NCBI GenBank assembly: GCA_019155205.2
Contig: JAHNZQ020003150.1
Coordinates: 2,570,727 to 2,634,726 of the forward strand
From: Gracilaria vermiculophylla
Lineage: Eukaryota; Rhodophyta; Florideophyceae; Gracilariales; Gracilariaceae
DNA: 64,000 nt
Reading direction: 5' to 3'
The translations under genes and the position numbers were made by a program. Below, one piece after another: positions 16,464 through 62,255 of the stretch. The notes under the pieces were generated by a model. The model had not been told where the DNA came from. It was given only the letters and a program-made list of their open reading frames with translations, and did no database searches. The first letter of the stretch is position 1. Every line of letters begins with the position of its first letter.

Positions 16464-16986
16464 TGGGGTACCGTTAGTTCTCCTTTCGAGGTGGTAGTGC
16501 ACAACGTCCGTTAAGAGTTTTTGTTGACTTTAAAGGCGCGAGTTCATTACGGCGGTCTCCGATAATCGCTATCACGAGCCGGGAGAATTCTGAAAGGGGA
16601 TCGGCACACACCAAGCGGAGATGAAGGATCAGTGCGAGGAAAATGCTCCTACAGGCGTTGCTATGAGGCGACCTGGAGATCGGCTGCTTTGAAACCTAAG
16701 GATGTTCGACAAGAGTCTTCAACCGGAAAAATAGACTTAGACGCAACGGTGCTTGGGTTACTTTCCCAGAGGTGGATCTCGATCGGCAGATTAAGTACCA
16801 CGCCGGGAGCCCACCTCGGTAGGTTTCCCTACTGTAGTAATTACCTGCACCCTTAAACTAAAATAAATCTAAATTCTAACGTTTATGAAGGGTACTGTAC
16901 CGCACGTGGGCCGAATAATGCACCACGCGGCTCAGTTAATAAAATATGAACAACCCTCCTTAGGAATATTCCGCCGTAAAGCTACA
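16464..16986 (-). repeat. copia-2 5' LTR
   Basis: Read on the minus strand it starts TGTAGC and ends GTACCCCA. It aligns along its length with the solo LTRs at 47866-48418 and 53690-54243, sharing AATATTCCTAAGGAGGG, the GGAGTCTCTTGTCGAT-like segment, GCAGCGCCTGTAGGAGCATT and ACTCCTAACGGACGTTG-like segment, but is more diverged and has lost about 30 bases near its start. This is the oldest copy of the family here. Confidence 0.85.
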
Positions 16987-23048: not shown

Positions 23049-24380
23049 CAGTGAAGTGCACGCCCGTTTTTTCGCATATTCCCGCACATAGGCTCGTGCT
23101 GAAAATCCGCAAGAGGGGAATCATACGACTAAGTCCCACGTAAACGGTCGGCCCCACGCGTCTTTCGCGTTGTTAGATGAAGTGCCTGTGCTGTCACTGA
23201 CAATTTAATGTTCCGGGGACCATGGGCTGCGTTGAATGTTGACTCTGTCTGGTACACGTGTGCAGGTGTGCTACTCGGCACGTTGTTCACTAACTTATGG
23301 TTTTCAGGTGTACACATTGCAAACTCAGCTTAATGTACACCGGATATATTTTAGTGTAATGTGCCTGTTCATGGTAACTATACACACACATTGCTGTATG
23401 GACACGAGTGGTGGTGGAATACAGGGAGTGTAAGGTGGTTGAGTGAATTTGTGCATTGTCATGGTCTCGTGAGTGTACGAAACTGTCATGCCTTGTTGTG
23501 CCTTGCTGTTGTAAGCATTATTGAATTGTGGCTAGTACATTTATGTCATGTTACAATATGATTGGTAGTATTGAGTGTCTCGCCTTTGTAGTGTAATTTC
23601 TGATGCAACCTAGTCGGCGCGACTGAACCACTATATAAGTCGTGGTCGAGGCACCTCCAAGTAAATCCAAGCTAGAGCTGGCGAACGTTCTTAATATCCC
23701 TCCAACCTTTCTTTGCCCCTCTGACCTCCAATACGCGTGTGGCGTGGGGGACTCCCGGAAGGCTCGGTGCCTGGCACAGAGCACGGACGGTGGCCCAGAT
23801 GGTCGGTATTTATTTATTTATTTAGTAGTTTTCCTATTTACTTATTTAGCACTACAGTACTAAAGGGCGCCGGCATCCCTGCCCTCGCCCTCGGTAACCG
23901 GTAACCGAAGTTCCGGCTGTGAGCCTTCCGCCTACGTCAGTATTTACCACTCACTGGGGACATCCCGTAGCGTACGGTTGATCATCGGTCTTGTTAACTT
24001 AGAGCGCCCATACTTGGGTATGTTACCAGTCTCATTGTGCTCGGTCCTGTACAAGAATCTTTACGACTCGCCGTTATTTGCCTAACTTCTTTCCCCCTCT
24101 TTACCACCGTTGTGGTACATCCATTAACTTGCGGATCCCGCGACCCGCGGTCCTTCTTTATTTCCCATCTCGTTCCTCCAAGGAGACACCAGACACACGT
24201 ACACCCAACTAGTGGGGATCTTCCTTATATTTCTCCCGCCAAAAGCTGCCAGGAAACCTTGATCTTACACCTCACACTATTGTGTTCTCCTTCGAGAGGG
24301 CTCTACCGCTGAACTAACTCTACAGAAGAAGATTCGGGCTTCTTCGTTTGCTTTTCCGGCTTGCGGGGCATTGCACTACA
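23049..24380 (+). repeat. Solo LTR of the gypsy-2 family, opposite orientation
   Basis: Starts TGAAGTGCACGCCCG and ends CATTGCACTACA, full family termini, on the + strand. It is inserted in the gypsy-2 3' LTR. The flanks GTCAG and CTCGT both align with GTCGG of the intact LTR, consistent with a diverged 5-bp duplication. Its LTR sequence is broken by about 555 bp of other DNA (about 23163-23718). Confidence 0.7.
23163..23718. mobile_element. Unassigned insertion inside the solo LTR
   Basis: Alignment with the other LTRs resumes at CCTCCAATACGCG (about 23715), so this block is foreign. It starts near TGTTAGATGAAG, has a TATATAAG box at 23632 and no coding sequence; this would suit a solo LTR of a copia element, but no second copy or clear duplication is present. 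Confidence 0.4.
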
Positions 24381-25048
24381 CTCGTGTGTCAGACGGAGAT
24401 CGCCCCTGCAGCATTTTGCGCGAGACTTTTAAACGAAATCCCCAATAGGTGGGTGCATGAGTGTGCGGTGCCTTCATAGAGGAAAGTGGTTGAAAATGAA
24501 GGGAAAGCGAGGGTCGCGAGATTCATAACGTGGAGGATGTACCACCAAGATGGTGATTAAAAGAGGTAGCCACAAGGCAAAAGACTGCGGCCCATAAAAA
24601 ATCTAGAACGAAAAGCAAGCAAAATGAAACTATTAGTATACCCAAGTATGGGCACTTTCAGCAAACAAGGCGGATGATCAACCGTTTGCTACGGGATATC
24701 CCTCGTGTGAGACAAATACCGACGTAAGTGGAAAGCTCAGAGCCGTAACGTTGATCACCGTTTAACCGTTACTAAGGTCAGCGGTAGGGATGCCGACGAC
24801 CTTAATTACTGTAGTGCTAAACAAGTATATAGAAAAACTACTAAATAAATAAATAAATACTCGAGCATTTTTGACACCACCCATGCACTGTCCGTGGCAC
24901 CGCAACTCCATGAAATTCCCATGTTCCATGATTGAAACTCTTACCGCCGGCTGCTCGCGCGGGACTTTTTCATATGAGTCTTATACCGTCGGCTGCTCTG
25001 TACGAGCCCGTAGGTCGGAATACCCCCGAAAAATCGGCGTGCACTTCA
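24381..25048 (-). repeat. gypsy-2 3' LTR, main part
   Basis: Read on the minus strand it starts TGAAGTGCACGCC at 25048. It contains the AAATAAATAAATAAATA-type tract (24842-24860) and GATATCCCGTAGC. It is interrupted at 24381; the missing 3' end is at 22941-23048. Confidence 0.8.
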
Positions 25049-25060
25049 TATCCCCCCCCG
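25049..25060 (-). other. gypsy-2 polypurine tract
   Basis: On the minus strand CGGGGGGGGATA directly precedes the 3' LTR start (TGAAGTGCACG at 25048). The same tract, AAGGGGGGGATA, precedes the LTR of gypsy-4 at 52604-52615. It would prime plus-strand DNA synthesis. Confidence 0.75.
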
Positions 25061-25106: not shown

Positions 25107-26890
25107 ATGCATAACTGTGCGCTCTCTTCCGGTTCGCCAGGATGCCATGGCAGTGAACCGGCAATGCACCCAACAATCGTTGACCGAGCTTCTTTCTCAT
25201 TTCAACCGCTCCCGTCTTCGACGGCTTCTCCGATCGGACAAAATTGTTGCCCCAACCTGAGCGCCCCGTCTCCGTACACTCCGATTTTGTAGGAAAACAA
25301 CGGCCCGAATGCCAAAATAAACTGTTCACAGGTTTTTGCACGGTTTTCGCTCCGCCAGCTGCTTCTCTTGTTAGTTGCAGGGCGAATAAATCCACCATCG
25401 AGAACGCTGACGGCTGAAAATGGCCGTCGTGCGATTTTCTGATGGGACGCAGCCCGCTAACCAGACACAGAGCGATGCAGCTCCAGTTTGCACAGTGGTT
25501 ACTCCCAACTGCTTTAGGGAACACATAAGTTCTTTAGCGTTCGGTCAATAGGGCTGATGTCTTTCCAGGGGATCGTCACGCCATTTTCGTGGATCAAAGA
25601 GATGGGAGGACCAGCGTCGCCTTACAGACGCACCAAGTCCGACGAGGCCGGAAAGATTACCTTCCTGCATCGCACGCTGCGTTGGTGCATTTGGCACACC
25701 GAAAGCAGAGCCATGCATCGCTTAAGTTGATGATCCCGTATGAATTTCAGTTCTATGTGGGTTTTTACCGAATTTGCAGGTAAATTGGCTATTGCAACTT
25801 CTCTGCGGAACAGGAAACTCTCAAATGGCGGAACTTCCCCAACGCGAGGAAGAAGGGCCTTTGCACGACTTGACCAATCCTCCAGGCGGAGTTACGATAC
25901 TTATCACAGTCGTACTGATCGAACTTCTTGCAGAACTGCATCAGTTTTGAACGGAAGGCACGCTCCCGAATGGCATACTTTGTCCCGTATCAGAATTTAC
26001 AAGGCGAAAAAAACGCCCCGGTACACCGAAAAGGTCAGCATGTCCCCTTACCACCGTGGCGGAATCACGTGGAGGCTTATTGTGGGTGCAACGTCATATT
26101 CCTTCCGGTTCTCACCTTTCTGGGGTCCTATCTCGTGAACGACCCGCATGCGGAGATATGGTTGGTGATAATTACAGAACAGGCTGTCCGCACGGCTGCG
26201 AATCTTCTTCCGGAGGCATACGACCAATACCGGCTGTGGTACATGCAATTGCTTGTGTATGCTACCATTGATCACCTTGAAATACCTATTCTATTCGAAA
26301 GGGTAGCCAACTGCTAAGAAGTTGCGTGCCTTATCGATTTCATCGAGTCCGTCCATTAAGATGAAGTACCGGTGAAAATGAGCGGGCGTGGTAAAGCTGG
26401 GCCCGGGGGTCATGGTCAGCGTCTGAGAAGGAACACCGCACGAGTGCGAGATTTCGTTCACTTCGACTCATGGATAGTCCGAGAAATTAGCCGCGAGAAG
26501 GTGGTAGAATATCGGGTGGCTTCGAAAAGTATTCCAGTTGGGCACCCAATCGGTTATAACGACCCAGATGAGTGGTGTTGCTCCTTCGAGTAGGAAGATC
26601 CGGCGGTCGATAAAAAGCGGAGAACTCCGGGAAAAGGTGACCTCGAAGAGGACAATGAAGGAACGATGGCCGCAGCTGACCTGCATGAGCAAGGGCCTGG
26701 GGCACCAGTAATGAACTCGCCATTCGCTTCGGTGCAGGCCAAAACAGAGGCTGTTCAAGGTAACGTGGCTTGATTATCAGTCCCAGCTCTTCCTGGAAAT
26801 CCCGGTGGCTTCTTTTTGAAAATTAGGCTCTCTCGACGGGTGCCAACGAGTCAGACGGCATCCCAAACTTCCTCCGCGGCTATGGCTTGA
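25107..26890 (+). pseudogene. Antisense ORF of gypsy-2 (aORF copy 1)
   Basis: Lies on the strand opposite to gag-pol, between the chromodomain and the 3' LTR, opening about 60 bp from the LTR. The start is set by a conserved ATG (MH...SGSPG) shared with copy 2 at 52558. Shared blocks in order: SGSPG-x2-G-x-EP, LPSSTASP, GPNAK, YRLWYMQ...HLEIP, EVACLIDFIESVH, RRNTARVRDFVHFDSW, DEWC, HEQGPGAPVMNS, AWLSVPALPGNPGG-like. Copy 1 has an extra part of about 800 bp (25420-26220) that copy 2 lacks, containing LPPWRNHVEAYCG and a hydrophobic-helical segment. Two or more frames and several stops (for example within FE-stop-EDP) break it. I recognise no domain. It is not gag, which is on the other strand at 33-34 kb. 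Confidence 0.6.
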
Positions 26891-27390
26891 GCGTTTGCGA
26901 CATATCTGGTGACCTTTTTGCCATGCGAAAAATCCTTGCAAACCACCTTAGCGGAATGCTTCTGCCTCTCAATGGTTAAATGGTTTAGTCCTTTTCAATT
27001 CTCCCCTAAGGCGGTATGTTGCTTTAAACCTGTGTCTTGTTTCCATTTTTCCTGTTTGCAGGATTTCTGCTCCATTTTCCGCAAAGGTGTTTACGCGTGG
27101 TGGCTCCGAAACTAGTCACCACAAAATTACGGTGATTTCGGCGTCGCCGGAAATGTTCGCCATGTGAATAGGAAAAACTATTCCTGTGGTTACGATGATC
27201 ATCGGCCCGCAAGCTGGATAAATAAATCATTCGTAGTTGCTCCGAAAAACTGAAGAGCGAAATGCAGTGGCGCTTACCAGAACTACTGCATCTGCGTCAG
27301 GATGCCCGTTCGACCGGAATTTTATCCTGATCAGCCGTTGCACAGCATGGCTGGAGTCGCTGTGCCCACCTTTTAGTGGTAGCGTACCTG

Positions 27391-29930
27391 GAAAGCATGT
27401 AAGAGATGTTCAATCGGCTCGGCAGTGGCGGACCACGGGTCGTAACTGTTCCCGCGTACATGGTACTGTTGCCTTTCCTCTTTGTTGTGCGAGGGTCCGA
27501 TGATGCATTCAACGACATGTTCTAGTATATGAATCGTCCGGTCATGCCTGTTTATCTTGGTTTCCTCCTGCGCTGAGGTGTGGCTTCCCGTTTCGGGTTT
27601 TGGTTTCTCATCTTGGGATGTTCGCTTCAGCTTCCCGGCATTCCGGTTTGACCGAGAGTCTGTGCGGCTCCCACTCGCGGGGTGATGCCGTGGCGCTTAC
27701 TGCTTTCACATTTCTGCCTCACGTGTGCTGCGGAATCCCCGTGAGCGGCTCGATTGTGCGAGCTCGCCCCTCCCCTGACAGATACACGCGGTTCGGCGAG
27801 CGACCAGTCTCAATTTTTGGAGCCGTTTTGCTTGTCAGGGTGCTGGTCATATCCAAAAACTTTCCCTCTCTTCGGGCCACATCTCCATGCTATACATGTA
27901 GTTTCTCTCTGGAGGCTGGCACGTGCCGGCGCACCACTTGCAATCGGCCAGCTCCGCGAATGCTCTGCACTTGCTGTCACGGGTGTTCTTGTTTGCTTGC
28001 CTTGGTGAGGGCTCTAGGCGATGGCGTCTCGCGATTTTCGTTTCCAACTTGGTTGGTGGTTTTGACTCGTTCAAAAAGGGCGTCCGGCCCGACCGAGGTC
28101 TGCAAAGAGTTCGCAACGGTGTCCATGGTTAAAGCTTTTGTATTTTTGGAGCTTGCCTTCGTCATGAAGGGTGTCATCGTCGGGGCTCTCTATTGTGTGG
28201 GCTACGATCTATAGTGTGGGCTGCGACGAAGATTAACGCATCTATGGGTCATGCCATGTTTCCCGTTCTGATGGCGAACAGACAACCTCCTTGAGAGAAT
28301 TGCAAGAGAGATCCTGCCTCTCTTTGATGGAGTGGCCGGAGACACAGATTGAACTGCTTGACAGGTAAATATTTCAGTTCGAACTGGACTCTTTGTGGGT
28401 TGGTCATCCTGGGCAGGCCATTTCAAGAAGTTCCACTTGTCTCCCGTCACGTACGGGGGATCTAAAAAACCCCGGGAGTGGTGCGGCAAGACGGCAGGCC
28501 GTGTGATTGCCTGTCTAGCAGATGTTGCTGGTGGACGCGAGGCCACTTTGTTCTGTCGGATTGAGCGGTAGAGGATGACCTCCGAGGAGGTAGGAGTAGC
28601 CGGGGTGCCTCGATCACGTGGCAGAAATTCGTCGTTGTCGTTCATGGCAACCACGACTGTATCGGTTGCGGCCAAGATCCCATTCAATGGACCGTCAGTC
28701 TCAAGCGAGAGTTTATGGCGCTTCTTCCTTTTGGAGGTAAAGAATTCTTTACGAATTAACACAACGTCGCAGACTTCAATAGAGTCTAGCGCGTTCTTAC
28801 CGCATGCAAGCGTCGACGTCCCACTTGTAAGTGGCTTGAACACGTGCTATGGACTTCCGCGCAGCGCGGACTAATTTCTTCAAAAAATAGTTCCTCGGTT
28901 TACGGTCGTCACCCACAGATGGGAAAGTGCCAAGCGTAGCTTGGAATTCTAAAGTCGCCGGAGGTGGAATCCGCAACAACACCCACTGAGACGGTGGCAA
29001 ATCGGTACTTTGGTGAACGTACATGATGTATGCGAACATCATCACGTCCGTGTGCAAGTCCCAGATTTTTAGGTAAACGGCAACATAAAATCGCAGAGAA
29101 GCGAGGATAGTACGCTGAAAGCGTTAAACATGCCCATTATATTGAGGGTTGTATGTCGCAGTGAACAGGTTCTTCAAACCCAGGATAAGACAAACATTCT
29201 GTAAGAAATTAGACGTAAATTGTTTTCCTATATCGGATAGTAAGTCTACTGGATGTCCACATCTGAATATCCAATGCGTAACGAACGCATCGGCAACCGT
29301 ATGGGGCGTAATTCTCCGTAGAGAGACAGATCAAACCTTTTTCGAAAACCGGTCTGTGATAACAAGTATGAAATTGTTGCCTCTCTGGGTCGTGAAAAGT
29401 TGACCGACAATGTCGATCGCAACATCTCCAACGGGGCCCGTGCAGTGAAAAGCGAGAGTTCTGTTTTATGTTTGCCGAGCTTCACCCTGTCTCCCACCCA
29501 CTGTGGGCAGAAACGCAGAGTTTCGTAGCTGTCGACCGCCTTGGCAGGCCAGTGCACCTCTCTTCTGAGGGTCAGGCATAGCTTCCCAACGCCCGCGAGG
29601 CTGCTCATCTTCGTGTATTACGAAAAATGCGACACACGCGTTTTGCAAGGGGTGAGGAACTACGATATGAAGGGAGGGATCGACGGTGTGGACTAGATAC
29701 CAGACGTCAGTAACACTCAAAGGGAGAAGCTTAGCACCGTTGATACGGCCTCGTATCTCCATGCAGAACGATTTGGCAAGTTGTTCTCTAATTATTTTCT
29801 CCGGTTGTACCAGTACAAAGCATCCCGGTACGGGGTTCTCATTGTCACTCTCACTTTCAGCTGGGGTATTGTCAATATCAGCTACGAATTTCAAATCGAC
29901 TGGCCGCTCCGGTTCCGTCGAGTCCATCAC
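27391..29930 (-). pseudogene. gypsy-2 integrase and chromodomain
   Basis: The zinc region is spread over two frames (VIHEDEQPRGRWEAM and LTLRREVHWPAKAVDSYETLRFCPQ, as in H-x-G...RR-x-YWP-x-M...C). The core entry is DIVGQLFTTQRGNNFILVITDR. MFAYIMYVHQSTDLPPSQWVLLRIPP is the C-terminal core helix; the region around NALDSIEVCDVVLIRKEFF is the GPY/F-type tail. A chromodomain sits at 27545-27391: IHILEHVVECIIGPSHNKE, QQYHVR and AEPIEHLLHAF. It aligns with that of gypsy-4, with the aromatic W of HVRW replaced by G. Chromodomains direct insertion to heterochromatin. Confidence 0.75.
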
Positions 29931-47860: not shown

Positions 47861-47865
47861 CTTTT

Positions 47866-48418
47866 TGTAGTATAGTGGCTCCTATGGAAATAGGTTGGTT
47901 TGGCCTTAAGGTATAATATTCCTAAGGAGGGCTCGTATTTTATTAGCTGCGCCACGTGGTGCATAATCCCGCCCACGTGCGCTACAGTATCGTTGAAGCA
48001 CGGTAGAATTATTATTTTTTTAAGATAATTTATGCAGGTAATTAGTACAGTAGCGAGACCCGCTGAGACGGGCTTTCGGCTTGATATTTAATCTGCCGGT
48101 TGAGCTCCACCTCTGGGGAAGTAAAGACAAGCACCATTGAGTCTTCATCTACTTTTCCGGTTGGAGTCTCTTGTCGATCAACGCAGGTTTCTAAGCCGCC
48201 GATCCCCAGGTCGCATCGTAGCAGCGCCTGTAGGAGCATTGTCCGCCCAGTGAACCTCCCCCTCCGCTTGGTGTTTGCGGATCCCCTTTCAGAATTCCCG
48301 CGGCTCGCGACAGCGGATACCGGAGGCCACCTTTAAGAATCCGCGCCTTTGGAGTCAACAAAAACTCCTAACGGACATTGTGCTCTACTACCTCGACAGG
48401 AGGGCTGACAGTACCACA
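47866..48418 (+). repeat. Solo LTR of the copia-2 family
   Basis: Starts TGTAGTATAGTGGCTCC and ends CAGTACCACA, 553 bp. It is flanked by perfect CTTTT duplications (47861-47865 and 48419-48423). It interrupts gypsy-3 between gag and protease, and no internal copia sequence adjoins it, so it arose by LTR-LTR recombination after insertion. Confidence 0.93.
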
Positions 48419-49919: not shown

Positions 49920-50485
49920 GTAGCTGTAGCCCCAGTACTATGTCAACGGTCGCGATGTGAATTGGATGCCTCGCCATCCAGAGCCTTTGTGAATATGTCA
50001 GCTCGAATCTGTGCTGATGAGACATGTTTTGTCGAGACCAAATCATTTTTCATGGCATCCAACACGTGATGATGTAGGATTTCAATTTCCTTAATCTTGC
50101 GCATTCCAAAATCAGTCTTTGTCCATGATATTGCTCTCAATATGCCTTCGCATAATGGTACATGGTGGCCACAAACAATTGCAAGTTCTTCAAAGATGTT
50201 CTTAAGCCAGCAAATTTGTATGATACATTCAGAGAGTGCATAAAGTTCGGCTTTTGTTCTAAAAACAGCGGTCGACTTCTGAAGGTTTGAACTCCATATG
50301 ACTAGTAAATCACCAACGCCGACCACAAATCCCCCGCTTGAGCGACGTTTGTACAAGTCCCGACTCTAATCAGCATCAGATCAGGCTGCTGCAGCCGTAG
50401 AGCACGCGCGCGGAATCAACAATCCGTAGGTGACAGTCCTGATCAAATACCGTTCCATGTTCTTCACGCATTGTCAATGTTGGGG
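49920..50485 (-). pseudogene. copia-3 RNase H fragment
   Basis: Minus strand: NMERYLIRTVTYGLL, SDADQSRDLYKRRSSGGFVVGVG, VIWSSNLQKSTAVFRTKAELYALSE, WLKNIFEELAI and RADIFTKALDG. This is the classical Ty1/copia C-terminus (D-A-D-W-A...KRRSTSG...KQ...S-x-x-E-A-E-Y...ADIFTK). The family has EAEY; here it reads KAEL. Different from copia-1 and copia-2. Directly abutted by gypsy-4 on the right. Confidence 0.85.
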
Positions 50486-50653
50486 TAGCGGGTTAGATGC
50501 AAAAATTTCCGAGCATTGAAACAGACGCACCCGAGTCTGGTCTCGTCCGTGCGCTCAAAAACAACATCGATCTATGCACCTCACTGTGCGGTAAGATACT
50601 CATAAACGTTAACTCAAACGCAGTAGGAATAGCCACAGCACTATATAGACAAT

Positions 50654-51160
50654 ATGTCCTTATGCGCTCCGAGATGGGAGACTGATCGCCAGCCGAATCA
50701 TGGGTACCGGTCAAGGGAGCCACGCCCTCGTCGAACGGAGCCGCTCACGGGTATTTCACAGCCCGCCCAAGGTGTATTTGTCCGAGCTATACGCGTCACG
50801 GTATCACGACGCGAACGGGAGCCACGCACACTTGCGGTCAGATCAGAAAACAGGAAAGGGGGGGTCGACAACCCAGGGCGAGAAAACGAGCCCGAAAGGG
50901 GAACCCGTAACTTCGCACATGAGGAAACCACAATAACCCGGCAAGGTCGTAAGGTTCACATACGAGAATATTTTGTTGAACGAATCGTCGGACACTCTTA
51001 CAACGAGGAAGGGGTGCTGCAGTACCACGTACGGTGGTAGGAATTTGACCTTTCGTCCGACACGAGCGAATCGATCGAGCACCTTTTTCTTGTGGTAAAG
51101 TATCAACGCAATGCGGATACAGCGATTCCAGTGTCGCCTTGACCGCCCAACCAGGGAAAA
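50654..51160 (+). pseudogene. gypsy-4 integrase tail with chromodomain
   Basis: A 128-codon frame ends with VHIREYFVERIVGHSYNEE then VLQYHVRW, a canonical chromodomain start (EY-x-VE-x-IV-x-H...QY-x-VRW). A TAG follows the W; in the same frame EFDLSSDTSESIEHLFLVV is the remainder (S-x-D-T-W-E...L). The upstream part is rich in Arg and Pro, a normal linker. Confidence 0.8.
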
Positions 51161-51589
51161 TCCCCCGTCGAACGATCATATTAGCGCGGGAGCACTATTG
51201 CTGGCAGTCGCTGCTGCACCCCGCCTTTAAATTTTTCTGAGCAACCACGAATGTGGTTTTTATCCAGTTTGATCGTCGATGATGTTCCTAACCATAAGTA
51301 TTGGGTTTTTCGTTCACATGGCGTACATTTCCGCACACACCGTGATCAATGTCATATAATGGTGGCCTAGTTTTCGGGCTTCCACGCCTAAAACGCTCAC
51401 CAGAAGGACAGAAACCCTGAAAACAAGAGAAAAGAAAGCAAAAACAAGTTTAAGGGAGGAAACCTCCTTGAGGGAGAGCTTGGAATAGGGTAGCCCGCTT
51501 AACCGTCCCGAGACAGAGGCATCGCTCTGACCTGGTTCGGAAGGGTTTTCCGCATAGCGGACAGATCACCAGAGAATTCTTAGACGCTC

Positions 51590-52558
51590 ATGACAACAAC
51601 GCTGAAGAAACTCGCAATAAAATCCGACTCACCAGCCCCCGTCGCGGGAGCCCCATTCCCGGAGGGAGAGTCACTGGGATTCCCAGGATCAGTGAGAGCT
51701 GGCAGCCAAACTAGGCTACCAGGAACAGCCTCAGACTCCGCCTGCGCCGGGGGGGGGAGATGAGTTCATCACTGGTGCCCCCGGCCCCTGCTCATACAAG
51801 TGAGCCGCGCCCAGCGCGCCTTTGTCGCCCCCTTTAATGTCCCCTCCTCCCGGAGGCGTTGGCTCGTTATTGACAATCGGGTCATCCTCCTCGTAGAAGC
51901 CACACCACTCATCGCAGTCAACGTCCACGATCGGTAGTCTAGCTGTATTGAGTCTCAGAGCCATCTGTGTTTCCCGCGTCTCCAGGACTTGCCACGGGTC
52001 GAAGAAGATGAAGCCTCACGCTCTTGCTGTGTTCCGTCCCACGTCTGGGCCAGAACCACTGATTCTGCATTCGTGGCCCCCGCTCTATTCCAGCGGTACT
52101 TTGACCGAATGGATTGAATCGATGAAATCGAGAAGGCCCACAACTTCTCCGCCGTTGGTGACACCCCCGAGGGAGATCAACATGTCGAGGTGGCGAATAG
52201 CAGCCCATACACGCGGTTGAATGTAAGACAGTCGGTACTAATCGCACGCCTCCGCGTCGGCATCTTCAATGGCGGATGAACTCGCTACGTGAATAGCACG
52301 AGAAGCAGCCGGCGCAGCCAGAATCGAGTCAACTCTTGTGGACAGGTGGTTTTTTGCATCCGGACCATCGTGTCCCGACGAAGTCGGAGGGTTTGGAGGC
52401 GGTGCGTTCATAGTGCGGCCAAGGGTTTGGTTATCCGGCGACGCCGTCGAAGATGGAAGAAAATGTTGCAATGAGACTGGTTCAACGCTCGTCAAGTTCG
52501 CTACCGGCTCGGTGCCGTCAGATCCCGGAGAACCGGAGAAAGGCGAGGACTTATGCAT
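51590..52558 (-). pseudogene. Antisense ORF of gypsy-4 (aORF copy 2)
   Basis: Starts at the conserved ATG 52558, about 60 bp from the LTR. Blocks in order: SGSPGSDGTEP, LPSSTASP, GPDAK, YRLSYIQ...HLDM, EVVGLLDFIDSIHS, RNTARA-stop-GFIFFDPW, CDEWCGFYEEDDPIV, YEQGPGAPVMNS, then PALTDPGNPSDS in a shifted frame. It lacks the 800-bp middle present in copy 1. Two stops (TGA in RNTARA-x-GF and a TAG after VPLE) and a frameshift in the G-run near 51745. The DEWC to MNS stretch is open for 78 codons. Function unknown. Confidence 0.6.
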
Positions 52559-52603: not shown

Positions 52604-52615
52604 AAGGGGGGGATA
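52604..52615 (+). other. gypsy-4 polypurine tract
   Basis: AAGGGGGGGATA immediately before the LTR start TGAAGTGCACG at 52616, same form as in gypsy-2. Confidence 0.75.
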
Positions 52616-53356
52616 TGAAGTGCACGCGCGTCTTTCAGGGTATTCCTACATATGGGCTCGTATCGTGCAATACTATGGAGAAGATTGACATAATTAAGTA
52701 CCTTTGGTATTTAGTTTTTTTTTTACTTCGAATTTCCCTAATTATTTAATTAGCACTACGGTACTTGAGGGGACCGCCATCCTTGCCGCCGCCTTCAGTA
52801 AACGGAAACCAAGGTTCCGGCTCTGAAACTTCCCCCTACGTCGGTATTTGCATCTTGCGAGAGATATCCCGTAGCGTATGGTTGTTCATCCGTTTTGTGG
52901 TACTGTCAGCCCTCCTTAGGGCCAAACCACCATATTTCCGTAGGAGCCACTGTACTACACGTTTTTTTTTGCCGAGAGCCCCCATACATGGATATATTAC
53001 CGGATTTACTGTGCTGCCTCTAACTATAAGAATCTTTGGGACTTTTGTCGTTTGTATCACGAATACTTCCCCTTTTTTCCACCGTAGTGGTACATCCTCC
53101 ACCTTGTGGATCGCACGGCCCGCGCTTTCCCGTCTTATCCAATCGTTTACCTCTGAGGAGGCACCGTACACACATATACCTAATTAGTGGATGTCTTTCT
53201 TATGCCTCTCTCAGTGAATGCTGTCAGGCAACCTCGATTTTAGACCCGACATCGTCGTGTTGCTCCCTCCAGCAGGGTCTATCGCCGAACTACCTTTCTA
53301 CAAATCGTTTTGGACGTCTTCGTGTGCATTTCTCGCTTGCGGGCTATTGCACTACA
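52616..53356 (+). repeat. gypsy-4 3' LTR
   Basis: TGAAGTGCACGCGCG to CTATTGCACTACA. Contains GAGATATCCCGTAGCG and the box-A-like block on the minus strand near 53280. Interrupted by a 64-bp miniature LTR of the copia-2 family. Confidence 0.85.
52896..52959 (-). repeat. Miniature (64-bp) LTR of the copia-2 family
   Basis: On the minus strand its first 40 bases are identical to the start of the solo LTR at 53690, and its last 20 (GGGCTGACAGTACCACA) to the end of that LTR; the roughly 490 bases between are absent. It is flanked by perfect CGTTT duplications (52891-52895 and 52960-52964). Inserted in the gypsy-4 LTR. Confidence 0.92.
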
Positions 53357-53375
53357 ATCAGATCATATCGGTGAT

Positions 53376-53654
53376 TTAGATGCATTGAGATTTCTGAGTT
53401 TTTGCAATTGTTTTACACAAAACGATTTTGGGACACAGATCCCATTTTATACTGCGTATATTTGCAGGACGGATAAGGTTTGCACGCCGTGGGGATTCTT
53501 TTAGTCCATAGGTTGCAATATTTTCCAGAAAACGGAGAATTGTGACCAGATGACGGTTCAAAAGTCGGCAAATTTCACCATATAAGAATCCATCTGCTTT
53601 CAGGAATATGACTTCAAGCTGTTTGGAGCGCGAAAGAGGTGATCCTTGAGCCAA
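53376..53654 (-). pseudogene. Tc3-like transposase N-terminus
   Basis: AQGSPLSRSKQLEVIFLKADG then EICRLLNRHLVTILRFLEN is the paired-type helix-turn-helix of Tc1/mariner transposases, equivalent to ARGPPLSKQEQLQIV in transposon 2. The start codon ATG has become TTG. It would bind the TIRs. No catalytic domain is left. Confidence 0.75.
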
Positions 53655-53689
53655 AAAAACCGATGTTTTTATTGTAGTGTTATGAGTAT

Positions 53690-54243
53690 TGTAGTACAGT
53701 GGCTCCTACGGAAATATGGTGGTTTGGCCTTAAGGAATAATATTCCTAAGGAGGGTTCGTGATTTATTAGCTGGGCCACGTGGTGCATAATATTGCCCGC
53801 GTGCGCTACAGTATCCTTAAGGTACGGTAGAATTTATTATTTATTTTAGATATTTTATGGAGGTAATTAGCACAGTAGTGTGACCTGCCGAGGCGGGCTC
53901 CCGGCTATATATTTAAGCTGCCGGTTGAGCTCCACCTCTGGAGAAGTAAAGACAAGCACCCTTGAGTCTCCTTCTACATTTTCCGGTTGGAGTCTCTTGT
54001 CTATTCACCCAGGTTTCTAAGCCGCCGATCCCCAGGTCGCATCATAGCAGCGCCTGTAGGAGCATTGTCCGCCCAGTGAACCTTCCCCTCCGCTTGGTGT
54101 TTGCGGATCCCTTTCAGAATTCCCCTGGCTCGCGACAGCGGATACCGGAGACCACCTTTAGGAATACGCGCCTTTGGAGTCACTAAAAACTCCTAACGGA
54201 CGTTGTGCATTACTACCTCGACAGGAGGGCTGACAGTACCACA
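53690..54243 (+). repeat. Solo LTR of the copia-2 family (in Tc3-like 1)
   Basis: TGTAGTACAGTGGCTCC to CAGTACCACA, 554 bp, flanked by perfect AGTAT duplications (53685-53689 and 54244-54248). It interrupts the 5' untranslated region of Tc3-like transposon 1. Very similar to 47866-48418. Confidence 0.93.
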
Positions 54244-54386: not shown

Positions 54387-55012
54387 TACAGTGCGTTTTA
54401 AAAACATATTACCCCTTAAAAGTGCGCCAAAACTGTACTGTAGGCTAGATTTTGCACATAGTCTACGTAGAATCGTTTCAAAAAGATATGTACACCGCTT
54501 TCTTTCTAATAAAAATGGCTCGAGGTCCGCCACTTTCCAAGCAAGAACAGCTTCAAATCGTTACGTTTAACGTCAAGAAACATTCTAACAGTGCTATCGC
54601 TAAAACCATAAAGCGTTCTAGGGTCATATTTGCTAGTTTTCTCAAAAACCCGACTCTAAATGGCTTTAAACGATCTCCTGGCCGCCCAAAGAAGCTCAGC
54701 CCAGCAGATAAGAAAGGAATTAAAAGGTAATTAGGCAAAGGAAAAGTATCGTGCAAAAAAATTGGAATTATTCTTAACCTCAACGTTTCTAAATATACTA
54801 TATGGAGGCAGATAAACAGTACAAATTTATTAAATTAGTATAAAATGAATAACCTTTCTTTCTCCAAGACCATCACAAGCAGAAGAGAGTTGACTGGTGT
54901 ACTGGAAAACCCTACTGGAAAAAATAATGGGAAAATGTAATTTCTACTGATGAAAAAAAGTTCATTTTGGACGGACCAAATTGCTACAAATTTAATTGGC
55001 ACGATCTTCGTA

Positions 55013-55453
55013 AGGGGGTTTCTACACCGAAAAGTAGACAGAAAAGAAGAGACACGGCGACTTGTCCACGCCACAGCGTAACATGTCCCAATTGGCTCGT
55101 ATGCTGTCCACAAGCAATGTAGAATCAAAACATGTCACTGGCGCGTAGACAGCGCTTTTCCCGGGAGAGCACATAAGCAAACCCTTGTAGCGCCCCGCCA
55201 AATTGTGTTGCCCCCTTAACAAANNNNNNNNNNNNNNNNNNNNNNNNNNNNNNNNNNNNNNNNNNNNNNNNNNNNNNNNNNNNNNNNNNNNNNNNNNNNN
55301 NNNNNNNNNNNNNNNNNNNNNNNGGACCCAAAGTACGGCACAGTTCTTGGGCAAAGTGGACACATGCACCGTGTCATATTGGGATGGCTTTTCTGAGAAT
55401 TTTAAGGAAAGGAGACAAAATTCTCCGTGAGATGTCTTGGTGTAGAAACCACC
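55013..55453. mobile_element. TA-flanked TIR element (MITE-like) nested in Tc3-like 2
   Basis: Ends AGGGGGTTTCTACACC and GGTGTAGAAACCACC are inverted repeats (14 of 15). TA stands on both sides (55011-55012 and 55454-55455). The transposase reading continues across if one TA copy and the insert are removed, which confirms the limits. No transposase of its own is visible, but 100 bases are unknown. Confidence 0.85.
55224..55323. other. Assembly gap (100 N)
   Basis: One hundred unknown bases, a conventional size, so the true length is not known. Confidence 0.99.
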
Positions 55454-56125
55454 TAAGGAACGTCATGAGTTTTATACCAGGCATTCAGATGGAGGCTCTG
55501 TAATGGTGTGGGCGGGCATTTCTAAAAAAGGTCCAAGGGTTATTGCCTTTATTGAAACAAGCATGAATGCGGAAAAATATCAAAAAGTTCTTTACGATTG
55601 TTTGCTATTCTTTGGTTTATGTTTTCATGAAGAAATTTTCATTTTTCAACAGTATAATTCGCTTGTATACACTTCATCTTTAATCAAAAATTGGCTACTG
55701 GAGTCTGAAGTAACTGTTTTAGAGTGGCCGGCGCGCTCACCAGATTTGAACCCAATTGAAAACGTTTGAGGACTGCTGGCAAGGATGGTTTATGCGCATT
55801 GAAGGAAATTTCAGACAGTTTTTGAACTCAAAAACTGTATTAAAAATTGCTGGAAATCTATAACAGTTTCAACTGTGAAAAAGTGCATCACTTCGATGCC
55901 AAAAACGTTGCATTAGCGTTATACAGTGAAAAGGATGCAAAATAAATTATTGAGCGTCGCGCAGTGAAGATTTGTCATTGCTGATCATATGTTTTTGAAA
56001 CGGTTTTTTGACTTTACTTTTTTCTGAAACCTATTTTTGTAGGCGTGCAATATACATTTCGTAGTATTTTGAGATTTCGTAGCATGTCGTATGTTTTTGA
56101 AACAGTTTGTACCTGTTTCATTATG

Positions 56126-56604
56126 AAGTTCTATTATTCCGTTCTCTTATTTACTTCACTCGTTACCCCGAATCACAACTATTCGAAAGTGATTCCATTA
56201 CGGAAACATCACTTGCTCACTCACAATCTGGATGGCTTTCATTGTAATATGAAAATGAATTATGCATGGATGTCGAAAAACTCTGGAGGATGTCTCCGCA
56301 AAAATTTGCGAATGGAATAATCCGGTGATTTACGTGTGACGGTCACGCCTAGCAACGTTACGGCCCACACAGATGGTTGATGGACTGTGTACAAAGCACA
56401 GAAAGTTTGGAAAATTCTAAAGAACTCATATCAAAGAGTTGTTTTTCTAATTGGAAAGAAGACCTCATCACTTTCACCCCATCTATCTTTGTAATCGACT
56501 TACAAAGAGATGTATTTGAAATAATCGATGAAAAGGGGGTGGGAATTGTCATACATAGAACTCAATTACAGTACGATGGCATAAAAACGACACAGACAAA
56601 CTAA
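56126..56604 (+). pseudogene. Possible broken gene for a small secreted protein
   Basis: An ATG at 56126 opens a signal-like start, MKFYYSVLLFTSLVTP, and runs 65 codons to a TAA. The same frame then has SGDLRVTVTPSNVTAH; from about 56377 another frame carries VQSTESLENSKELISKSCFSNW to 56604. One stop and one frameshift would explain this. It converges on the secreted gene at 57221-56601. I recognise no family; it could be chance. Confidence 0.3.
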
Positions 56605-57221
56605 AAGAACTCAGTGTAGACCAGGACACACCGATTCATTATTCGAGCTTTTCGAGCCGACATTTGCACCACTTCCTTCACCCTAGGCGGCGAAACAGAA
56701 GTATCCAGAACTTCATATTCGGTGAGGTACATCGGAACAAAGGCCCCATTAGGCTTGTATCTGCTCATGGCAACTCCTGGCATACGCGAAATTCCGGATC
56801 CATGCGAATCCGGGATGTTGGCTGTCCTAAACAACGACCCTGGGACGGTCAATTAATTGCATTGAGTGGTCCAGTAGCGACAATTGGAATAAGCTCTGCA
56901 GTGAAATACATATCGCAGAGAATCCATTGATTTAACGTATCCGATAGCTGATTGGTCTTTATTGTACTTCTTAACAATTCTCGGAGTAAAGGCTCCAGAT
57001 AAATATCCATTCATAGAGTAGTTTCCTGTTCCGCATTGCACATGATCATATTCAGCAAGCACTCCTTCAAGTGCAAAATTGCAAAGACCTGAGTCGCCTC
57101 GTACTTCACACCATTCGAAAGTCAAGTATTCGTTTGTCGCCCAAGAAGGAATGGAAATGGCAGATAATGGGCTCTCAACATAAATAAGAAACACCAAAAA
57201 CAAACTGCAGAAGAACTTCAT
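56601..57221 (-). pseudogene. Secreted protein family A, copy 1 (in-frame stop)
   Basis: ATG at 57221; signal peptide MKFFCSLFLVFLIYVESPLSA. The rest aligns along its length with copy 2 at 58730-58110: WCEVRGDSGLC, DHVQCGTGNYSMNG, SGAFTPRIV, GYVKSMDSLR, HGSGISRMPG, YKPNGAFVPMYLTEYEVLDT, SVSPPRVKEV and MSARKARI. A TAA at 56853-56855 lies within a 21-bp segment (56853-56873) absent from copy 2, so the frame is otherwise open to 56601. Either a pseudogene, or the 21 bases are spliced or polymorphic; they lack GT...AG ends. Function unknown; exported protein. Confidence 0.65.
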
Positions 57222-58109
57222 GACGTAATATAGTCATGTGTTATCATTGTGAAATGAATGAACACAAAGGGCCGTCACTTATATACCAAGCACAATGCAT
57301 TCAGTTCGCTGGCAATTTCTGAAAGATTACACACATGTGTTTTTCTTTTTGACCTTGCATTCGCAGAGGAGGCACTTGCGTCAATTTGTTGATCATAGAA
57401 AGGACCAAAGCAAACTGCTAAAGTTTCTGTTCTTCGTAAGCTCTGAAGGCTATAGCCCTTTCTGAACAAGTAACAAAAACAATGTGATTTAAAGCGTGGA
57501 AGCAAATACGCTTCTTGAAACCACGCATCTTTATTATTCGTATCAAATTGACTTCATTTTGTGGTGAACGATATGCATATTGAATTCGTTCATTGTTGTG
57601 TGGAATTCCCAGCCATGAGATGCGCTGAAGCGTTAATGGAACTGGAAAAATATTTAAGCATAAAAGTATTGTTCTGATTTCGATAATTCAAACTCAGCTG
57701 CTTTATGTGATTTGCGCATATTGATTGCAAATAGTCCTAGCTACAGGCTGCCGAATAAGGCTTAGATAAGTATTGTCGTAACATTTTACCTGTAGTTTGT
57801 TGTTTACCTTATTGAAAATCTACAATTCTTTCTTATTTTTTACTCATCATGTGACTCCTATCACTTTCATCTTGCCTCGAACAAAAGGAGAAAAAATGGG
57901 TTTAACTTATTTTAAAGTAGAACATGTTATAACGGATTTACCGAGGACAAAATTAGAGTTAATCAGAAAGATATTTTAAACAATGCACGATTTGCAGCAA
58001 GTCTTGGCCATGATTGTTTTAAGATTGATCGGTAGCATAAAATCCACCTTTCAGCTCACATAGCTGTGCACTGTGGAAGATTTCACAGAATTGTGCCTCG
58101 TTTAGCAGG

Positions 58110-58730
58110 CTAAAATTGGGCGTAAAATAAAACGCATTGGTTCTCTACCCTGGCCTGTCGCGCAGACATCTTTCGAACTTCTCTGACCCGTGGTGGGGAT
58201 ACAGAAGTGTCCACGACCTCATATTCAGTAACATACATCAACACACAAGCTCCATTTGGAACAAACCTTCTCAGAGCCCGCTCATGCCTTCGAGAAATTC
58301 CTGACCCTCTCTCTCCAGGCAAGTTGGAAGAACCAAACAACCATCCCGGAATAGTCAGATACCGACATCTTCTGTTTGAGTAAGTATGATCTTCGTTATC
58401 ATAGTCCGTTTCGCACATGTAGACATCTCTAAGAGAATCGTCCACCTTTACATATCCTACTTCAGCGTCATAGAAATCAGGGTCTTTGTGAATGATCTTG
58501 GGTGTAAATGCTCCTGAATGTGCACCGGTCAAAGAAAAGTTCCCAGAACCCCATTGAACATGATCAAACACACCCCACAAATTCTTGAAACCAAACCTAC
58601 ATAGACCTCCATCCCCGCGTACCTCACATTTTTCGTACGTAACGACTTGATTTGCTTCGAGCGGAGTATATCCATAGACCCACTTATATGTAAGAAGAAG
58701 AACAAATGAGAACAAAATATGATTCACCAT
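58110..58730 (-). CDS. Secreted protein family A, copy 2 (intact), 206 residues
   Basis: ATG at 58730 in the good context CAACCATGG. Signal peptide MVNHILFSFVLLLTYKWVYG, probably cut before YTPLE. Mature part about 186 residues with six or so Cys (KCEVRG, GLCRF, YMCETD, RRCRY, GACVLM, NQCVLF), a GSGNFSLTG-x2-SGAFTPKII block, an acidic VDDSLRD...DYDNEDHTYSN loop and a basic C-terminal helix (REVRKMSARQARVENQ). No transmembrane segment after the signal peptide and no domain I know. Same orientation as copy 1, 0.9 kb apart: a tandem duplication. Probably an extracellular or cell-wall protein (inference from export only). Confidence 0.75.
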   Translation of the reverse strand: MVNHILFSFVLLLTYKWVYGYTPLEANQVVTYEKCEVRGDGGLCRFGFKNLWGVFDHVQWGSGNFSLTGAHSGAFTPKIIHKDPDFYDAEVGYVKVDDSLRDVYMCETDYDNEDHTYSNRRCRYLTIPGWLFGSSNLPGERGSGISRRHERALRRFVPNGACVLMYVTEYEVVDTSVSPPRVREVRKMSARQARVENQCVLFYAQF

Positions 58731-60060
58731 GGTTGTGGCAGTTGTTGGAGAAGTACTAAAGAATCAGCGGCCTTTTGTGGAGGAACTAATCAGCGGAACT
58801 CACGCGATCCCATAAGTAATTCGTTTAAATTGAGAGGAGGATTCTTTTCAAAACCGCTGTATTGTGATTCTCGTACATGTTGTTTGCATGAATCCTTCTG
58901 CACCAACATCGATGAAATGCTCCGAATGATGTACAACAAAGCTTTCATGAATAATAACGGGGGTTTCATTGATGACGCCATACGTTATGCTCGTTGTCAG
59001 AGATCAGATGCACTGAGCAAAGCGGTGTGAAAATTCAGATGTTTGAAAGAATCAGGCATCTACATCCTCTCTCGGCTCTCTTTTTGGGACGGGTCTTGAT
59101 TGGAAAATGTGTTTTAGAGCATCAGAGATATAACGAAAATACCACTTAATTACGCATACTACGTACTCCAGCATGAGCAGCAGTAGTCGGATGATAAGGT
59201 ACATGCATTGTTGTAAGGAATTCATCTAGGATAAATTGGTTCTCATAGTTTGCATGTGTCCCGTGCAGGGTATCATAGCTTAAGGAGGAAACTATCAACA
59301 CAAATCAATGATTTCAAACGCAGACCTGATTTCGTATATGTTTTGTATTAACACATATAACTATTTCTTTTGTTAGATAAAGCTCTTTCTCACATACTTT
59401 TTGTTTACGGCAATCTCTGATTGTGGCTCCGCATACATTTTGCTTCACAAAAGACGAAGTACTTGCGCAGTTCTGATGAACAAGACGTGAGTAGAAAGAA
59501 ATGCAAATCTCAAATGTATTACAAAAAATTCATTTCCATGTATATGTAAATGAAGTATTAGCCCAGAATGATGTCCTGCGACAAAACACTCTTGGGTGCC
59601 TCTCAAACACTCAGTATACGTAAATGATATAAACAATATTTAAACGTTTTAAATTTTAATCTTGTGTTAAAATTGTCTTTAAACTGCAAAACAATGAGTG
59701 TTATGCGTAATTATTAAAAGTTTAGTAGTTATTGGAGTGTCTCGATGACAGATTGCGTCCGCGTTGTTTAACAATATATGCACAATTAAAGTTTATTGCA
59801 GATTTCTCCATCTTTAATGGTATTAAGGTGTTTTTGCGTTAGAATAAGGTAACGACTTTTCTATTTGGTAACCGCGTTGAAGTCTTATTCTGATAAAATA
59901 AATGGAGAGCTTGCCTAAAATCAGTTTTCATCAGAATCAGAAGAATCATCAATCAACAAAGAGAACCCGAGAACAGCTAGAAAGTCTACAAAAAGAAGAA
60001 GACCCCAGAAACCCCGTCTGCAACTGTTTTGGAAGGCAGCAGTTCACCAAGTTGGTGCGA
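58731..60060. other. Intergenic stretch without a gene
   Basis: The + frames at 58719-59030 and 59902-60375 overlap secreted genes on the other strand and have no family; I treat them as chance. Otherwise A/T-rich, with microsatellite-free low-complexity at 59640-59720. Confidence 0.45.
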
Positions 60061-60636
60061 TTACGCCTTTCTACAGGACGGTTTTCCGTGGCGATCGTAC
60101 CTGTTGAAGACGCCTCCACATTTGTTTTCGCAGCATGTGCGACCAACAGTAGCAAACGCCACCCCGATTTGAGAAGTACTTCCCTGTGGATTGGATCGAT
60201 CATATACATCGCATGCTTCGCGATACTCATCGCTCATCATGTAACACGCTCTCATGCAATAATTGACATCGAGTGGAGTGGAGACAAAAATACTCGTGAG
60301 ACCATTATTGGGACATTTGCATTGCACTCCAAATTCTTCAGGGGCATGATCGACGGCCTTCACGGCGCAACTTGAAGGGGTAGGAGATGGAGTTGGGGCA
60401 TTCGGGTTGCGAGAACACGTTGTCCAAGGATGATCGTTGGGACTTCCGCAACTCTTCAGAATACATTGGTTATCGTAGATACCCTGCAAGCAGTCATAGA
60501 GAGATTGAAATGCCGGAAGGCACTGTTCCGAGCATGCAGAAGCACTTCTCTGTGTGGCAAAGATTGATAGTTCGTCATGGACCGCTGCCAGTGCGGTAGT
60601 GAGGCCGATCAATACAAAAGTGAGGAATGATAGCAT
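60061..60636 (-). CDS. Secreted Cys-rich protein family B, copy 1 (intact), 191 residues
   Basis: ATG at 60636 (AATAATGC). Signal peptide MLSFLTFVLIGLTTALAA. The mature part holds about 14 Cys in a regular pattern: ACSEQC, YDCLQG, NQCILKSC, TTCSRNP, SSC, QCKC, YCMRAC, EACD, TCCENKC, SC, split by a Pro/Ser/Thr linker (NAPTPSPTPSS, near residue 77). This suggests two disulfide-bonded modules joined by a flexible linker. No further membrane segment. I do not recognise the family. A broken paralogue lies 1 kb away on the same strand. Extracellular role inferred only from the signal and Cys. Confidence 0.75.
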   Translation of the reverse strand: MLSFLTFVLIGLTTALAAVHDELSIFATQRSASACSEQCLPAFQSLYDCLQGIYDNQCILKSCGSPNDHPWTTCSRNPNAPTPSPTPSSCAVKAVDHAPEEFGVQCKCPNNGLTSIFVSTPLDVNYCMRACYMMSDEYREACDVYDRSNPQGSTSQIGVAFATVGRTCCENKCGGVFNRYDRHGKPSCRKA

Positions 60637-61671
60637 TATTTCAAAGAAGTATTAGGTGAAAGCTGGTGCGGTGGAGATGTTGGACTTGATATGCAGCTTC
60701 AAAAGGAAACAAGAGATGCTTAAGTACTGAAGTATTGGGATGCAGACAGAATTTGTAGAGAGCTGGACGGGGGATATTCGTTTGAGTTCTGGAGCTGGTC
60801 TTGTTGATTCTACGTTTCAAAGCATTGTCAAGAGTGCCATGGGCGGTGAGACGAACGGCGCTTGTCTGGATTGCATTCCTCGCATTTGGCGCTCTTTGTG
60901 ACCTCGGCATGACGAACTGCCAGCGGCGCGCTTGAATTTAAAAAAAACAAAACAAAACAAAACAATTCACGCATTGCGCGAGGCAGCAGGTAAATTATTG
61001 AAGCCATCGGCATATTTGAGCGGTACAGAACATTTGAGCACCGTATTACTTTGTCGGCGAAAATCTCGTCTGGATTGCTATTTAGGATTACCGAGTCATT
61101 CCACTCAAAAACAATTATGTTCCAACGCAGATACTACTTTAACATTTGTTTGAAATGCGATCCTTCACATCATTAACGGCATGCGTGGCAAATTTTTTTT
61201 TGGAGACAATGCGATGACTTCAACATTGAACTCTGTCAATCAGAAATGTTCCGACCAGAACGTGCATGTACGCGAGTACATGATTGCGGTGAGTTGGTAA
61301 ACATGTCAAAGAGCATTGTCCTCAATTTCTCACTTTCCACGCGTCGTCCACAAAACATGAGCAACCAAATGGCCATATGCACTTTGGCAACGGAATAGAA
61401 AACTTCACTTCATGCTTTTATCACTGTCGGTTTTCACTTCCAACAACCATGGAAAGGTTGTGTTTCATATTTTGCAAACTTCAAGAATAGTGATCATAGC
61501 ATCGTATGAGTAACTATTCAATTATTTCAACAAGGACACGGCAATTATATACAACCCCGACGCACATATAAACATCTAATGGAAAAAAGAGCTCCAAGAC
61601 GCATTGCATAGACATTGTATATCTCCCAGGAGGTGTAGATTTTGGTCTGGGACTACGAAACCCATTAAATA
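60637..61671. other. Intergenic stretch between family B copies
   Basis: No gene seen. Contains the run AAAAAAAACAAAACAAAACAAA-like at 60940-60963. The first 200 bases would be the promoter of the gene at 60636. Confidence 0.4.
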
Positions 61672-62255
61672 TTAACATTTTCCACAACTCGGCTTCCCAT
61701 ATCGAGCGAACTTTGTGAACACTCCACTAAACCCATGTTCACAACACGAACGGCCAAGTGCAATGAATGTCGGTTCTGGCTGCAAAAGATCGCCGTTCGA
61801 GCTGTTGCGGTCATTATCATTGCTTGCCTGGCGATATGTTTCACGCATCCTGTAGCATGACCTCACGCAATAGTTTATGTCAAGCGGAAACGATACGAAT
61901 GCGACGCCCAACTCTTGGGTGAGACATCTGCAGACTACTCTAAACTCAGTCTCGCGGTGATCTTTTCCCAGCATAGGACAAATGGAGGGAGTGGGTGCGG
62001 GCTGTGGGGCGATAGGGTTACGGGAACATATCATCTAAGGATGATCGCTGAGACTCTCACAACTTCTCGTTATACACTGGTCATCAATACATATATTTCA
62101 TCCAGACAGTCGTAGAATTATTGAAAAACTGGCAAACAGCGCTCAGAAAATGGATGTGCTTGAGTGCAAGAGTCGTGGAACCATAATTCAGAAAAGCTGC
62201 AAGCCATGCTCGAGAAATGAACTCAGCGAGCACAAACACTATCCTGCAAAAGTAA
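61672..62255 (-). pseudogene. Secreted Cys-rich protein family B, copy 2 (broken)
   Basis: From 62034 a 120-codon stretch CSRNPIAPQPAPTPSIC...VVCRCLTQELGVAFVSFPLDINYCVRSC...GRSCCEHGFSGVFTKFARYGKPSCGKC matches the C-terminal two thirds of copy 1. Upstream the match goes on: SERCLPVFQ-stop-FYDCLDEIY, a one-base frameshift, then DQCITRSC...SDHP-stop, where copy 1 has W (TGG to TAG). So two stops and a frameshift. The signal peptide region (62180-62255) is no longer clear. Confidence 0.75.

Follow-up and report, generated by a model that had tools for sequence, protein, structure and literature searches.

The window, meaning the whole 64,000-nucleotide stretch of Gracilaria vermiculophylla DNA analysed here (G000:C21:2570727-2634726), contains two chromodomain Ty3/gypsy elements, gypsy-2 and gypsy-4. 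Both hold remnants of one antisense gene in the interval between the chromodomain and the 3' LTR (Table 1). The antisense orientation proposed in the preliminary description is borne out by Pfam, which places Chromo on the - strand in gypsy-2 and on the + strand in gypsy-4; the motif blocks lie on the other strand in each case. A conserved ATG near the polypurine tract, also described earlier, lies 63-64 bp from the LTR edge read by eye, with a G-rich tract alongside. In gypsy-2 the EQGPGAPVMNS block begins at 26687, and in gypsy-4 it runs downwards from 51793. Its DNA differs at four sites between the two copies, as had been reported, but all four differences, rather than three, are silent third positions. 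However, positions 25107-26890 of gypsy-2 do not form the single open frame that had been described, as they contain 18 stops and several frame changes, and the tblastn layout spreads the gene of this copy (C21+2594333) over three frames. Judged by eye from the homologous C-terminus, the gene ends at a stop at 26977-26979 in gypsy-2 and at 51499 in gypsy-4, in both cases past the end given before. Both window copies are broken, gypsy-4 additionally by its central deletion. A genuine protein-coding gene of a red-algal chromovirus family, now decayed, occupies the interval.

Table 1. Features of the two chromodomain elements in the window, in window coordinates.
Feature	Position	Strand	Basis
gypsy-2 3' LTR (far edge approximate)	24287..25043	-	Edge by eye, repeat pieces, length by analogy with the 761-bp L070/L077 LTR match
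gypsy-2 polypurine tract, just outside the LTR	about 25044-25059	-	Read by eye
gypsy-2 antisense gene from ATG to stop, decayed by frameshifts and internal stops	25107..26979	+	Motif blocks, tblastn layout in three frames, C-terminus homology
gypsy-2 pol end with chromodomain	27376..27696	-	Pfam Chromo E 0.0044, below curated cut-off
gypsy-4 pol end with start of chromodomain	50633..51037	+	Pfam Chromo E 4.6e-4, below curated cut-off
gypsy-4 decayed antisense gene, central deletion of about 0.8-0.9 kb	51499..52558	-	Motif blocks, C-terminus homology
gypsy-4 polypurine tract	52604..52620	+	Sequence
gypsy-4 3' LTR (far edge approximate)	52621..53377	+	Edge by eye, repeat pieces, length by analogy with the 761-bp L070/L077 LTR match

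Several other features share the window. The gypsy-4 region is flanked by direct repeats (47865-48418 and 53689-54243; 86-95% identical, 5.8 kb apart) that are LTR-like and belong to another family, and a piece related to them is inverted at 16464-16697. At 54449-55769 (+) lie pieces whose motifs resemble those of a Tc1/mariner-type transposase, with a masked stretch inside. Two adjacent frames on the - strand (56601-57233 and 58110-58763), one of them broken, have the motif EVRGD-GLC in common and resemble a tandem pair of secreted-protein paralogues. A neighboring pair of Cys-rich, secreted-looking paralogues occupies 60061-60651 and 61672-62034 (-). Elsewhere in the assembly, phycobilisome proteins account for 17 PF00502 matches, which, with the named homologues described below, point to a red-algal host, probably one of the Gracilariaceae. 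Their genes are found on the plastid-like contig C20 and over 170 kb of the 5.16-Mb contig C17 (G000:C17:3006506-3176520), where they represent a nuclear insertion of plastid DNA or an assembly join.

Own-genome searches covered the 44.8-Mb assembly of 27 contigs. With 150 of 476 candidates scored, they returned at least 150 chromodomain matches, some of which lie in long open frames. At least 74 of the 150 have either this antisense gene or a second one, described below, within 3 kb downstream, on the opposite strand in all 74; at the remaining 76 places neither was detected among the gene matches listed. The first gene follows at least 50 of the upper 90 chromodomain matches, and the second follows at least 21 of the lower 60 and at least 3 of the 40 unpaired upper ones. 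Four additional chromodomain loci were inspected individually: L078 carries the first gene, L080 and L081 carry the second, and at L079 neither was found and another transposon is present. The blocks were also considered as the gag of an oppositely oriented element. This idea was prompted by a 140-codon frame beside gypsy-4 (49946-50365, -) that, by its motifs, resembles the end of a Ty1/copia RNase H, although Pfam gave 0 families there. It was rejected because the chromodomain is found opposite the blocks in gypsy-2 and gypsy-4, and at 74 of the 150 places.

Intact genes are present in relatives of the window copies. The first two chromodomain loci fetched, L069 and L070, both have one on the strand opposite to pol, in stop-to-stop frames of 722 and 627 codons, respectively. 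Pfam Chromo passes the cut-off at E 1.4e-8 in L070, 6.2e-11 in L069, and 5.8e-8 in a piece at C3:1600097, and a chromodomain at the end of pol points to chromoviruses. In the L070 element the two LTRs are 98.3% identical, with 13 mismatches over 761 sites, and the antisense start codon lies ~85-90 bp away from the 3' LTR. The antisense ORF and pol stand tail to tail in this element, the former ending at 497 and the pol frame stopping at 220-222. With 63 of 272 candidates scored, the L069 protein has at least 66 own-genome matches, which fall at about 60 separate places and show 32-89% identity besides itself; six of the 66 are stop-free within the match, itself included.

Another antisense ORF follows a chromodomain group that is less closely related (L080, L081). 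This second-lineage ORF has at least 104 own-genome matches (104 of 708 candidates scored), of which 10 are stop-free within the match, itself included, and the copies L082 and L083 have 708 open antisense codons. Similarity to the first family is weak: tblastn with P0004, a Gracilariopsis protein of the first family, against a single 3.3-kb stretch gives 32% identity over 91 residues (E 8e-6), a single-sequence profile comparison gives E 0.009 with a probability of 5%, and a profile-profile comparison gives E 1.6e-4 with a probability of 51% over 153 columns at 29% identity. Given the unchanged order of the aligned blocks and the shared place and orientation of the genes, the two antisense families are probably homologous, although this falls short of proof.

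Selection was assessed by dN/dS in all frames for seven pairs of family 1 and six pairs of family 2 (L085, which has a masked stretch, was left out of the counts and L081 out of dN/dS). In family 1, antisense dN/dS is 0.90, 0.80, 0.63, and 0.44 for L069 against L071, L072, L073, and L074, and 0.69 and 0.93 for L070 against L075 and L076; the L069-L070 pair gives 0.33 at a near-saturated dS of 1.7. Close family 1 pairs (91-95% identity) decide nothing, because their antisense values are 0.63-0.93, those of other frames are 0.53-1.26, and in four of these five pairs at least one other frame falls below the antisense one. For the two diverged pairs, the other frames lie at 0.95-1.38, except sense frame 2 at 0.52 and 0.48. 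The six family 2 pairs have antisense values of 0.64, 0.48, 0.31, 0.39, 0.54, and 0.30, with 0.70, 0.47, 0.42, 0.48, 0.54, and 0.35 in sense frame 2 and 0.82-1.52 in the other four frames. Taken across families, the five pairs below 85% identity show antisense dN/dS of 0.30-0.44 and 0.95-1.52 in the frames that do not share wobble positions. Sense frame 2 shares its third positions with the antisense frame and carries 14-25 stops in the intact reference copies (14-18 in family 1). In L069, L070, L082, and L083, the antisense frame has no stops and each other frame has 8-25.

Thus, the six-frame comparison proposed in the preliminary description finds antisense dN/dS near 1 only between close copies, no equal conservation of other frames save the stop-filled one that shares wobble positions, and intact copies without any stop in the antisense frame. 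The accessory gene that had been postulated for this family is upheld by intact ORFs in relatives, purifying dN/dS in diverged pairs, and homologues in other red algae, and that it is a selected antisense gene is very nearly certain.

The decayed copies preserve traces of the same constraint. Queries with the gypsy-4 C block (94 aa) and N block (106 aa) returned 34 and 37 own-genome matches, respectively, and 68 loci were merged into 39 stretches; the 33 with an N block were aligned and the six without one were left out. Over the whole gene, the mismatch at antisense codon positions 1, 2, and 3 is 0.374, 0.350, and 0.402. Minor alleles found in at least three copies follow the order 2 < 1 < 3 (0.953, 0.816, and 1.03 per column at positions 1, 2, and 3), and singleton alleles lack the coding pattern (0.807, 0.830, and 0.765). 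A pattern in shared alleles without one in singletons is expected under selection on active lineages and drift in dead copies. Substitutions were also randomly re-placed in 16 disjoint pairs of decayed copies, and the amino acid similarity was scored per frame. Over nucleotides 1-1500, the antisense frame has a z of 6.2 and the other five frames 0.2, 0.1, 2.1, -2.1, and 2.7. Values near 2 carry little weight, because the 130-bp 5' flank reaches 1.9-2.4 in three frames. Stops over the same nucleotides number 16 per 1000 codons in the antisense frame versus 28-37 in other frames. Beyond nucleotide 1500, the antisense signal is gone (z 0.6). Three copies kept a single frame over ~530 codons with 6, 10, and 20 stops; in the 20-stop copy, the antisense frame does not have the fewest. 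The matches to both blocks and the sparing of the antisense frame by substitutions show that the likeness of the window copies is not due to chance.

Copies differ in length, the long ones having ~0.8-1.2 kb more than the short ones between the N and C blocks. An intron there was rejected because the middle is coding in intact relatives, and the short copies look like deletions at GGC microhomology. One deletion junction is common to C1:2033670, C7:1560630, C8:164952, and C9:1807908, which miss ~1.07 kb of the antisense gene; in C4:1225594 and C21:1668020, the upstream edge is roughly shared and the downstream edge comes later. The four copies are possibly a non-autonomous subfamily, or independent deletions at the same microhomology may have produced the common junction. 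RIP-like mutation was rejected as a source of the stops, as the indices of the copies and of the window are ordinary.

The encoded protein has 612 residues from the first ATG in L070 and 712 in L069, and the two are 48% identical where aligned. Over about 610-720 residues, it opens with a region rich in Pro, Ser, and Thr, continues with a conserved Trp-rich core of ~350 residues, and closes in an acidic tail. P/S/T make up 27-37% of the first 150 residues in six proteins, and the last third of these is net acidic (-4 to -23). The core best kept between species runs from ~W124 to D469 of L070 and includes the stretches RPI-RAEFRYL, PYQN-E, GRY-PLP-WW, and E-YDQYR-WY. The mean of the most hydrophobic 19-mer ranges from 1.18 to 1.92 in the six proteins, with 1.18-1.45 in the first family and 1.92 in L083 of the second; the 19-mer scan found no stretch resembling a membrane anchor in the first family. 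A look for short K/R runs gave no clear nuclear signal. AlphaFold2 gave no usable fold for P0004 (eight alignment rows, mean pLDDT 34.6).

Homologues were recovered from other red algae. A profile of five decayed copies (A1) recovered no proteins among 7995 scored candidates, a profile of 10 single-copy pieces (A2) recovered P0001 and P0002 (Agarophyton chilense, 211 aa) among 1708, and a profile of the three intact proteins (A4) recovered P0003, P0004, P0005, and P0006 among 7991. P0004 and P0006 are the Gracilariopsis chorda proteins BWQ96_03215 (617 aa) and BWQ96_10156 (565 aa); the G. chorda homologues are annotated as hypothetical. Pfam assigned 0 families to the three intact proteins and P0003-P0006, and no relative was found in Pfam, NCBIfam, PHROGs, or PDB, where the only PDB matches were at chance level (E 1.6 and 0.71). 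By sequence comparison, the protein resembles nothing found outside red algae.

We propose that the antisense gene is expressed from a promoter in the 3' LTR and encodes a trans-acting nuclear regulatory accessory factor, a model to which we assign a probability of roughly 0.6 as a whole. The antisense mRNA would start from an antisense promoter that lies in the 3' LTR once the element is integrated, and expression would come from integrated copies. This promoter is placed in the 3' LTR, or a few tens of bases beside it, because the start codon is only ~60-90 bp away. The protein would then assist the element's own cycle in trans, as an accessory factor. Copies without the core have apparently still multiplied (four share one deletion), which suggests that the core is not needed in cis and that the protein, if needed, acts in trans. 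It is probably nuclear and regulatory by analogy with the Retand and Grande antisense proteins, for which such a role has been proposed, the TRP28 proteins, and HBZ of HTLV-1, for which it is known; the chances of the regulatory role itself, which comes from this analogy, we put slightly under even. Somewhat more tentative is a deeper history, in which an ancestral antisense gene predated the two chromovirus lineages and the Gracilariopsis/Agarophyton split, and a trans regulator expressed from the 3' LTR, an HBZ-like strategy, arose independently in red algae.

Other functions can be weighed against the same evidence. The protein could be structural or serve in packaging, as a particle component, an envelope-like protein, or a nucleic-acid chaperone, rather than a regulator. 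Its length, globular-looking conserved core, and disordered ends would suit such a part. However, it would be expressed from its own strand, apart from gag, the first family has no membrane-like segment, and L077 has a gag region at the usual place (by eye), so we regard a structural role as unlikely. Still less probable is that the antisense RNA is the active product and the protein secondary, with transcripts from the 3' LTR pairing with genomic RNA to dampen or tune the element. The position beside the 3' LTR would yield antisense RNA, and part of the literature on plant antisense ORFs raises this possibility (PMC7264820), but the amino acid constraint and the open frames of 600-720 codons require a translated product. 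We also see little likelihood that a host gene was captured once and retains a host-protein function, some of the other algal proteins perhaps being host genes. The G. chorda proteins are annotated as hypothetical genes, but in G. vermiculophylla the family lies repeatedly inside elements (40 of the 66 first-family matches listed pair with one of the 90 chromodomains), and no other annotated relative was found. Finally, the absence of any antisense gene, with a chance opening created by a coding sense frame or base composition, is excluded by the intact ORFs and the cross-species homologues: sense frame 2 does have reduced dN/dS as well (0.35-0.75 in 11 of 13 pairs), but it borrows third positions from the antisense frame and is riddled with stops, the codon-position order fits the antisense frame, and pol of L070 has already ended before the antisense ORF.

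Most reports of antisense ORFs in LTR elements deal with single families, the proteins are heterogeneous, and it is doubted whether they work. The present case is one family under measurable purifying selection, with about 60 places and at least 104 in the second group within a 45-Mb genome, and with members in other red algae. It offers a good opportunity to test why antisense genes evolve in retroelements, and it suggests that some red-algal "hypothetical proteins" are retroelement genes encoded opposite to gag-pol. No report of antisense LTR genes in red algae, or of this protein family, was found in the open-access literature.

Several close parallels come from plants. Retand-lineage Ty3/gypsy elements (Retand, Grande with gene23, and RIRE2) carry an antisense ORF that mostly encodes Transposase_28/TRP28 (PF04195), and the Grande gene23 protein is reported to be nuclear (PMC11963269; PMC7264820). 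Like these, the red-algal gene is antisense, lies between pol and the 3' LTR, is long, and is kept across copies and species. However, the Retand lineage comprises non-chromoviruses of flowering plants with 2.9-6.6 kb between pol and the LTR, whereas the red-algal elements have ~2.3 kb there and a chromodomain, which places them outside the non-chromovirus (Tat) lineage. Pfam found no TRP28 match in the antisense proteins, and the single one in the assembly is below cut-off (E 0.38) and lies elsewhere. In the REXdb survey of plant LTR elements, extra ORFs in reverse orientation with 250 or more codons are described from the 3' part (eORF-3'R). Their proteins are highly heterogeneous even within lineages, while the red-algal family is a single one, kept in many copies and in several red algae; the survey's main text does not contain the term "red alga" (PMC6317226). 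Outside plants, the fungal element Boty of Botrytis cinerea and Sclerotinia resembles the red-algal elements by description in having an antisense ORF between pol and the 3' LTR (PMC7264820). HBZ of HTLV-1 and APH-2 of HTLV-2 are likewise encoded opposite to gag-pol near the 3' LTR and have their promoter in that LTR (PMC10186651; PMC11963269), where the red-algal promoter is only presumed; unlike HBZ, the red-algal protein has no bZIP or other known regulatory domain in Pfam or PDB. Antisense ORFs at the same place are thus already known, and the red-algal gene is a different protein family, carried by a chromovirus.
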